Positions 13,688 through 62,922 of a DNA stretch of 64,000 bases are shown in pieces. A program made the translations under genes and the position numbers. Source of the stretch: Beroe forskalii. Its lineage: Eukaryota > Ctenophora > Nuda > Beroida > Beroidae. Positions within the stretch are counted from its first letter, which is position 1. The number at the start of each line of letters is the position of its first letter. The DNA is taken from assembly GCA_011033025.1 (NCBI GenBank), contig WFMF01000330.1, positions 62,001 to 126,000 on the forward strand, given 5' to 3'. Under the pieces are notes generated by a model. It was not told the DNA's origin. It saw only the letters and a program-made list of their open reading frames with translations, and ran no database searches.

Positions 13688-16600
13688 TTAATGTTTACCC
13701 ATTTCCAAGGCAGGTATCAAGGAATTTATGTCGAATTCATCGAGCTGTTTATCCCAGGAACCACCCATGTGCCAATTTGCATCACCAACATGCCAGTGGG
13801 CATCATCATGATGCTTCAAAGCATCATCGAACTGCCATGATCTTTGATCATGGTGTGAAGGAACACGGGATCTCCCTCGCATTTGCATCCCATGACGATC
13901 ATTATCCCATTCATTTCCATCACGTTCATGCTCATCCCATTCATGTTCTTCACTACCATTATCCCATTCATGGTCATGCTCCAGATCATCATGTTCATGC
14001 TCCACATCATTATGTTCATGGTCCCAGTCAGAGCCTTGTGTTTCTTCACCGCGGTGCCAGTCTTTATTCAGTGTCCAGGGGCTGACGGTTTCCCAATTCC
14101 AGGGGGTCTGCGTTTTCCAGTCCCACGTTGAGTAAAACGTTGGGAACCACCAGCTTTCCGTTGTGGTGTCCTGAGATATGAGGCGTTCGGGCAGATAGTA
14201 ACGTTTGCCACTTTGGCCTGGCGCTTACCTAGTGCAGGCGCCAAATCTGTGTTGGACTCTTGCCAAAACCTGTTTTACGCTGGCACAAGGCTGGTGCAAA
14301 GGGACCTATGCCCGAACAAGACAGTAACTCAGTAACTCAGTCATGGAATTATTTGGCCATGATTGCTTTATTGATCGTATTCATAGTACAGAGTTGAGAA
14401 CCCAATTAAATATTTTCCGTGTAAAATAAAATGTATTTCATTATATGCATAAGAACGAACCTTAGGGTAGGGTGTGGAACTGGAAGTTGATGGTGATGAA
14501 GACGTTGATTCTGAAAAGAAAGTGTAAACTGTAATTTCAGGTCACTTTGAAATCAAAATAACAGAATATAATGAGAGAACTTGATTCTCCTATTTCTCTT
14601 ATAGTCTCTCTCTTATACATTATAGTCATGGTTCATTATCATATTTTTTCTCTTCTATCAGGATTTTGGTAACTGTTGATATAGCTATATGCATTATGCA
14701 TGGGTGCCACTGTCCCAATTGGGACAGTGAATTCTCCCCATGTGGGTTTTCTTCTTACCGCAGATGGGGACATCACAATGCTCCCACCGGGGTTCCGTCC
14801 CCAGGGAGTTGTAGCACCACGGCTGCTCATCATTGTCCGGGTTCCGACAGTAGTTGTGATCTCCGAGTCCAGAGTAGGGGTTCCTGAAAATGTAACGGAT
14901 AATGCCAGTCAAATGGTATTTCATGAGGAATACTTGGAATAATGCCAGTCAAATGGTATTTCATGAAGAATACTAGGGATAATGCCAGTCAAATGGTATT
15001 TTAGGAAGATACTTACAGCAGATCATAATATCATGTCTTATTATATTTACAGTTTGAACACTAGCGTGGCATTCAGAAATCATTCGAAAAATGACAAATT
15101 AATGACCAATCAGATTCAGCATTCAATCTCGCTTTCAGCGCATTTCACCAAGCCCAAAAACTTTCACGAAGAAAGCAACAATTGACAATGGAATTAGAAA
15201 TATTCCTTGCATCACAAACTACAGCCCCACTTACTCTTCAGGTTGCTTGGAATGCCGGTTGGGATACTGGTCAGTCCACTTCTGACAAGGGATTCCTGAC
15301 TTTGTTACATTGACGTTTCCCCGGTACCAGAAGCCTTCCTCGTCCCACCATAACCTGTTGGTGAAATGGTTACCTGCAGGGCTCCTGATCACCATAACCT
15401 GTTGGTGAAATGGTTACCTGCAGGGCTCGTGATCACCATAACCTGTTGGTGAAATGGTTACCTGCAGGGCTCGTGATCACCATAACCTGTTGGTGAAATG
15501 GTTACTTGCAGGGCTCGTGATCACCATAACCTGTTGGTGAAATGGTTACTTGCAGGGCTCGTGATCACCATAACCTGTTGGTGAAATGGTTACCTGCGGT
15601 GAAATGGTTACCTGCAGGGCTCGTGATCACCATAACCTGTTGGTGAAATGGTTACCTGCAGGGGTCCCACCATAACCTGTTGGTGAAATGGTTACCTGCA
15701 GGGCTCGTCCCACCATAACCTGTTGGTGAAATGGTTACCTGCAGGGCTCGTGATCACCATAACCTGTTGGTGAAATGGTTACCTGCAGGGCTCGTCCCAC
15801 CATAACCTGTAGGTGAAATGGTTACCTGCTCGTGATCACCATAACCTGTTGGTGAAATGGTTACCTGCAGGGCTCGTCCCACCATAACCTGTTGGTGAAA
15901 TGGTTACCTGCAGGGCTCGTCCCACCATAACCTGTTGGTGAAATGGTTACCTGCAGGGCTCGTGATCACCATAACCTGTTGGTGAAATGGTTACCTGCAG
16001 GGCTCGTGATCACCATAACCTGTTGGTGGAATGGTTACCCGCAGGGCTCGTGATCATCATAACCTGTTGGTGAAATGGTTACCTGCAGGGCTCCTGATCA
16101 CCATAACCTGTAGGTGAAATGGTTACTTGCAGGGCTCCTGATCACCATAACCTGTTGGTGAAATGGTTACCTGCAGGGCTCCTGATCACCATAACCTGTT
16201 GGTGAAATGGTTACCTGCAGGGCTCGTCCCACCATAACCTGTTGGTGAAATGGTTTGGGGCCTGATCACCATAACCTGTTGGTGAAATGGTTACCTGCAG
16301 GGCTCCTGATCACCATAACCTGTTGGTGAAATGGTTACCTGCAGGGCTCGTCCCACCATAACCTGTTGGTGAAATGGTTACTTGCAGGGCTCGTGATCAC
16401 CATAACCTGTTGGTGAAATGGTTACCTGCAGGGCTCGTGATCACCATAACCTGTTGGTGAAATGGTTACCTGCAGGGCTCCTGATCACCATAACCTGTTG
16501 GTGAAATGGTTACCTGCAGGGCTCGTGATCACCATAACCTGTTGGTGAAATGGTTACCTGCAGGGCTCCTGATCACCATAACCTGTTGGTGAAATGGTTA

Positions 16601-62922: not shown

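Follow-up and report, generated by a model that had tools for sequence, protein, structure and literature searches.

Tandem repeats are biased towards splice junctions in sampled genes of the ctenophore Beroe forskalii

The stretch of DNA analysed here, in the following called the window, comprises 64,000 nucleotides of the genome of Beroe forskalii (C393:62001-126000, from an assembly of 216 Mb in 1,134 contigs) and contains tandem repeats that lie beside or across the exon boundaries of its genes. The genes of the window contain introns. A kringle gene and a BCCT transporter gene lie on the minus strand, while the plus strand carries the gene for homogentisate dioxygenase (HGD) and a long open frame in which an LDLa domain is found. 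Splice sites in the window genes were placed by translation. As the 13 exons of BCCT join into one open protein and the HGD exons B, C and D (plus strand) join into an unbroken translation, the splice sites of these exons are fixed. Protein domains were searched with Pfam in all frames between 14000 and 17400 and in one frame between 9000 and 14000. Arrays detected by Tandem Repeats Finder (TRF) amount to 22% of the window compared to 5% of 250 kb of sampled loci, with overlaps counted.

A sequence-only reading of the window had claimed that three arrays and one duplication in three unrelated genes are anchored at exon boundaries and include exon bases, and this is what we observe (Table 1; a vertical bar marks the boundary). 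The array at the kringle acceptor includes 9 exon bases according to TRF and about 16 in variant units, and 29 intact acceptor cores are present in its approximately 32 units. The array at the donor of HGD exon B starts 13 bases within the exon, and CAG|GT is kept in 25 of the 27 GTATTT units. At the acceptor of HGD exon D (CTCGCAG|GGTATACAC), the array called by TRF (62637-62792) ends 38 bp before the junction, and degenerate units that cross the junction to about 62845 were recognized by eye only. The duplication is located at the donor of BCCT exon 3. A further array, in BCCT intron 10, had been described as starting about 8 bp from an acceptor; it does lie beside the acceptor and the distance of about 8 bp holds by eye, whereas TRF places its edge at 28 bp, and it includes no exon bases. 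The second array of this intron lies about 176 bp from the donor.

Table 1. Position of exons, genes and tandem repeats in the window.
Feature	Position	Strand	Basis	Remark
Kringle exon, first half	15235..15354	-	translation	
Kringle exon, second half	14759..14883	-	translation	
44-bp array at acceptor of kringle exon 15235-15354	15346..16749	-	TRF	unit acceptor CACCAACAG|GTTATGG
40-bp x 2.9 array, about 15 bp upstream of acceptor 14883	14899..15013	-	TRF	without exon bases
BCCT transporter gene, 13 exons	23452..29030	-	translation	putative upstream first exon near 29.2-29.4 kb counted as exon 1
43-bp x 2.1 duplication at BCCT exon-3 donor (28353|28354)	28296..28386	-	TRF	33 exon bases
16-bp x 2.1 duplication starting at BCCT donor 27975|27976	27942..27975	-	TRF	without exon bases
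Two arrays in BCCT intron 10	25141..25608	-	TRF and by eye	
Array 29 bp upstream of next BCCT acceptor	26991..27095	-	TRF	without exon bases
HGD exon B	59894..59999	+	translation	start provisional
32-bp x 27 array at HGD exon-B donor	59987..60855	+	TRF	donor CCACAGCAG|GTATTT
Degenerate array entering HGD exon-D acceptor (62831)	62637..62845	+	TRF to 62792, remainder by eye	
HGD exon D	62831..62922	+	translation	

In the kringle acceptor array, units with GGGACGAG carry an acceptor and a donor-like CAG|GTAACC that are 24 bases apart, and each such unit could thus resemble an in-frame micro-exon. Use of the second donor at BCCT exon 3 would add 43 nt and a stop and break the frame, as judged by reading the sequence.

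We compared the position of the arrays in the window to chance by permuting 14 arrays within the spans of the three genes kringle, BCCT and HGD, with the HGD exon-D array extended by eye to 62845 and without the array at 16859-17073, which lies beyond the kringle span. Four of the 14 arrays span a junction compared to 1.05-2.19 in the null distribution if exon intrusion is limited to at most 20-50 bp (P 0.012-0.14), and compared to 3.91 if it is unlimited (P 0.61); a seed-unit model predicts 0.75 spanning arrays (Poisson P 0.007). When arrays within 30 bp of a junction are added to those that span one, the count is 8 of 14, whereas the null distribution gives 2.9-3.8 (P<=0.003), or 5.3 without the exon limit (P 0.055). 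In the complete introns of the window, six of seven arrays lie near or across a junction compared to 2.38 expected (P=0.0033). In the complete-intron test and the test of random re-placement within introns and flanks, the large kringle array (15346-16749) lies beyond the capped territory and the 7.5-kb HGD intron does not count as a complete intron; the three-gene permutation includes both. As the window had been selected for the pattern, we used loci chosen by protein family alone, and it is this independent sample that carries the case.

The sample consists of myosin and kinesin loci. For myosin, the 30 best loci were merged into 13 segments that cover 57 kb and 50 of 78 profile rows; for kinesin, three gene regions of the many listed were chosen for compactness before their sequence was inspected. 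Splice sites were placed by profile matches, splice scores and reading frame, which resulted in 115 sites (88 in myosin, 27 in kinesin) and 26 arrays. Each array was re-placed at random within its own intron or flank in 20,000 draws. Of the 26 arrays, 13 cross a splice site or are at most 30 bp away from one compared to 3.1 in the null distribution (P<=5e-5, the lowest value that 20,000 draws can give); nine lie within 15 bp compared to 1.6 expected. Per 10 kb, the density of array edges reaches 27.5 between -3 and 15 bp from the site and 23.2 between 16 and 30 bp. Farther into the intron the values are 2.9 (31-60 bp), 2.2 (61-100 bp), 7.6 (101-150 bp), 5.1 (151-250 bp) and 3.5 (251-400 bp), and inside exons (-60 to -4 bp) the value is 4.6. 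The comparison with random placement that the sequence-only reading had called for at the scale of the genome thus gives, on this independent sample, a clustering of edges within 30 bp of splice sites and does not refute the idea. When only complete introns are considered, 7 of 10 arrays lie at junctions compared to 2.32 expected (P=0.00098). The 32 complete myosin introns include seven stretches that bridge a possibly missing exon; in the 25 strictly partnered introns, all five arrays have an edge at most 21 bp from a splice site.

We furthermore compared the real sites to decoys, that is, to equal-scoring sites without homology support in the sampled loci, kinase and ionotropic glutamate receptor (iGluR) loci included. 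Of the 115 real sites, 10 (8.7%) have an array edge between -3 and 30 bp, compared to 1.5-2.3% of equal-score decoys and 1.55% of random positions. Among sites with a score of at least 3, this applies to 8 of 107 real sites and to 157 of 9,185 decoys (Fisher P=0.0006). As the decoys may include true splice sites whose exons went unseen, this comparison is conservative. We thus conclude that the bias of array position towards splice junctions in the sampled genes is real in this sample.

The sample also contains additional repeats that cross a junction. The acceptor GTGTTTCAG|TTCAAC in a myosin locus (C225) is located at the end of a 34-bp array with about eight copies that includes 6 exon bases according to TRF; by eye, 11 exon bases are recognized, one mismatch included. 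At a kinesin donor (CTAAAG|GTAAGG, locus L084), a 43-bp x 2.0 duplication includes 31 exon and 12 intron bases and closely resembles the duplication at the donor of BCCT exon 3. At a third site, a myosin donor (C785), the copies have only 4 exon bases in common, which equal the microhomology at the breakpoint; this duplication may therefore be wholly intronic. In all junction-crossing units that we read, the sequence passes from the exon into its own intron without an exon-exon join. Thus, DNA has been copied and not spliced RNA, and the earlier suggestion of reverse-transcribed spliced intermediates receives no support. Two-copy arrays are longer than two full periods by 5 bases (BCCT exon 3), 2 bases (16-bp duplication in BCCT), 2 bases (kinesin L084) and 4 bases (myosin C785); these values are derived from TRF lengths, whose ends can gain a base by chance. 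The excess of 2-5 bases in four two-copy cases suggests microhomology at the duplication breakpoints.

We propose an explanation for the observed anatomy, for the junction excess observed in the sample and for the short terminal matches. Tandem duplication would occur at the level of DNA with one breakpoint no more than about 30 bp from a splice junction, and microhomology-mediated slippage or repair may be the step of origin. Some of these duplications would copy an exon tail with an intron head, or an intron tail with an exon head. The working site would be the one beside the exon body, and extra copies would leave the intron with unused look-alike sites. Unequal exchange or slippage might later grow some copies to tens of units. 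We infer that a higher rate of duplication near junctions gives rise to the excess and that splicing does not use the copies. As an overall explanation, we give junction-near tandem duplication with microhomology, followed by expansion, about an even chance. The wider notion that ctenophores and, separately, lancelets have a process that preferentially duplicates junction DNA, and that splice sites are the birthplace of much intronic minisatellite content, which continually supplies spare sites, is tentative and rather doubtful.

Several results weigh against this explanation. The evidence stems from the DNA sequence of one genome assembly and covers two protein families and three window genes. 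The 7.5-kb HGD intron contains six TRF arrays that are at least 271 bp from any junction, and the complete kinesin introns alone show no significant bias (2 of 4 arrays, P=0.15). Arrays that include exon bases are only in mild excess in the complete introns of the window (2 compared to 0.90 expected) and in weak excess in those of the independent sample (2 compared to 0.82 expected, seed model). Furthermore, no genome-wide tandem excess of perfect donor words was found: the strict word MAGGTRAGT forms 948 tandem pairs (gap 6-36) among 8,510 words (11.1%) and the reversed word forms 1,304 among 10,410 (12.5%). As the donor word is no commoner than its control, few of its occurrences are real splice sites, and the word-pair test is thus weak; the pair counts are also weighted heavily by large arrays, and one contig supplies most of the listed places. 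Lastly, the arrays with at least 3.5 copies in the independent set are all located at junctions (5 of 5, compared to 8 of 21 with fewer copies; the threshold was set post hoc).

This last result is as compatible with biased survival or growth as with biased birth. Duplications might form anywhere in introns, and those that abut a junction might live longer and grow because deletions that remove them also take away the splice site. The claim that minisatellites nucleate at junctions is therefore supported in part: it holds with respect to their position in the sample, which biased birth and biased survival both fit. We nevertheless judge survival to be an unlikely explanation of the excess: near-identical two-copy duplications are already found at junctions (BCCT exon 3, kinesin L084 and myosin C785), and one-sided protection would hardly yield a four- to six-fold excess. 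It is improbable that the excess reflects chance or our methods. The sample is small, with only 115 sites and 26 arrays, and the placement of sites might have been drawn to repeats, as the placement of 38 of the 88 myosin sites relied on no partner exon and some kinesin sites were placed by hand. In addition, pyrimidine tracts might have been taken as repeats; at least one array (L084, 177-214) lies within the pyrimidine-rich tract of an acceptor, and our filter, set at 85% pyrimidine or purine, excluded no array of the 26 and hence provides no test of such calls. Such effects are difficult to reconcile with the complete introns, which alone give P=0.001, and with the equal-scoring decoys, which do not show the effect.

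Three further explanations concern the function or the origin of the copied sites. Junction repeats might be kept by selection as decoy splice sites for regulation or buffering, as the sequence-only reading had proposed, and a splice-like core is indeed kept in most units of the HGD exon-B and kringle arrays. But the identity of this core (95.8-99.0%) is barely higher than that of the rest of the unit (93.9-96.8%) in three arrays (98.1/95.6, 99.0/96.8 and 95.8/93.9%), and 10 of the 13 junction-hugging arrays of the independent set include no exon bases, which makes such selection most improbable. R-loops, which had also been suggested to seed duplications at junctions, favour G-rich sense strands. 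Junctions are transcribed by nature, and the sense strand is G-rich in 3 of 14 picked junction arrays; but its GC skew is -0.1 or lower in eight and near zero in three, and we thus hardly expect R-loops to be the cause. The arrays could also be left over from the gain of introns through AG|GT segments that were duplicated in tandem in the genome. The duplication in this model reportedly creates both ends of the new intron, and the kringle unit has an acceptor together with the donor-like sequence described above. Mirages, that is, tandem repeats over exon-intron boundaries, have been proposed as intermediates of intron gain in a study of lancelet globins (PMC3087553). Against this origin, each repeat that we read contains only one of the two splice sites of its host intron, and host introns of known length exceed one unit. 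Therefore, these introns were not made by that duplication, and we regard this origin of the arrays as very unlikely. Junction-near duplication followed by expansion remains our preferred explanation.

Additional loci were inspected by eye and not pooled with the sample. Kinase loci are mostly single-exon and contain few boundaries. Eleven further kinase and iGluR loci provide seven acceptors and one donor; an array is located about 14 bp away in one of them (L061) and at 264 bp in another (L045), and the others have no array on the intron side. A 36-bp x 2.1 duplication in L052 (2270-2346) crosses the end and the stop codon of a kinase frame and not a splice site. In the profile rows of kinesin (C291:171201-179589) and myosin (C225:1041609-1042105), the same exon pieces recur at short distances, a pattern suggestive of tandem exon duplication at a larger scale.

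The window genes have additional features. HGD spans 52238-62922 on the plus strand, and its exons A and B, which flank the 7.5-kb intron, are consecutive in the protein as judged by homology. Immediately upstream of exon B (WLYRIRPSV...), in the region 59860-59900, an AG is lacking; the intron would end with TTTCAC, whereas the donor of exon A, GTTAGT, looks normal. A non-canonical acceptor, a sequence error and a missed small exon are alternative explanations. The long open frame with the LDLa domain (55464-57449) lies within this intron on the same strand and is likely a nested gene. Such nesting is described as common in another ctenophore, Hormiphora, whose genome paper reports many genes nested in introns and TRF repeats that amount to 13% of the genome. 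The BCCT gene of this animal encodes an osmolyte transporter and has at least 13 exons; the family is best known from bacteria. Elsewhere in the window, a 2.7-kb array (4522-7222) consists of about 130 copies of a strongly C-skewed 21-bp unit, and ATATTCG and CGAATAT arrays occur in both orientations, densely so over about 0.9 kb (48051-48944). Two arrays that are 27 kb apart (36767-36887 and 63711-63875) have much the same 55-bp unit (ATGCAGAGTGGTGTCAACGTCATAG...). This minisatellite is therefore dispersed, perhaps with a mobile element as carrier.

We also examined the affiliation of the host. In mitochondrial COX1, TGA encodes Trp, AGA occurs at apparent Arg sites and the GC content is 20%. 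The mitochondrial DNA of Beroe forskalii is reported to have 17.3% GC and to fit the coelenterate code table without deviation. The ligand-binding half of an iGluR has its top match in ML032222a (113 bits, compared to 86 bits for the next receptor), which we take to be a protein of the ctenophore Mnemiopsis. With a longer query, kainate receptors rank first on whole-length score; at another iGluR locus, other glutamate receptors rank first and no ML032222a chain is among the 60 matches listed. Genome searches for GFP and RAG1 gave no match, in searches without a positive control. A first assignment to amphioxus, prompted by the mirage-like repeats (see below), was dropped in view of these searches and of the COX1 and iGluR evidence; the host is most likely a ctenophore and not a cephalochordate.

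The starting points of minisatellites are usually obscure, and a bias towards junctions offers a testable birthplace, or refuge. It also ties the turnover of repeats to the way in which new splice sites and introns are supplied.

The sequence-only reading had stated that most minisatellites are not known to derive from splice sites; repeats of this kind have already been published as mirages in lancelets. They are described for lancelet globins, with Adh3 and other loci cited there (PMC3087553), and for PGBD5, with troponin C cited as well (PMC3902484). In titles and abstract openings, our literature search found no report of splice-junction minisatellites in ctenophores. Units with bases from both sides of the boundary, as in mirages, occur in the kringle, HGD exon-B, HGD exon-D (by eye) and BCCT exon-3 repeats as well as in myosin C225 and kinesin L084, but neither in the BCCT intron-10 array nor in the remaining junction-hugging arrays that include no exon bases. 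The AG and GT signals are kept in the copies of the HGD exon-B and kringle arrays, which is a further likeness to mirages. The unit length of the Adh3 mirage, 10-72 bp (Nucleic Acids Res 2002, as cited in PMC3087553), overlaps the approximately 22-44 bp of the junction-crossing cases found here, whereas the units of the globin mirages are longer (about 150-160 bp). Tandem duplication of segments that carry splice signals is also described for intron gain by tandem genomic duplication (PMC4974935, PMC3443670). In that model, both splice sites of an intron reportedly come from the two copies, whereas one splice site of an existing intron is copied here. Internal tandem repeats that alter human gene structure, with paralogs in segmental duplications (PMC2812944), likewise modify genes, a likeness by description only. 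The kind of repeat is thus already known from lancelets. The present analysis adds the mirage type in a ctenophore genome, together with a junction excess that was measured in a sample and to which arrays located beside the junction, with no exon bases, also contribute. This suggests that the mirages of lancelets are not peculiar to lancelets.
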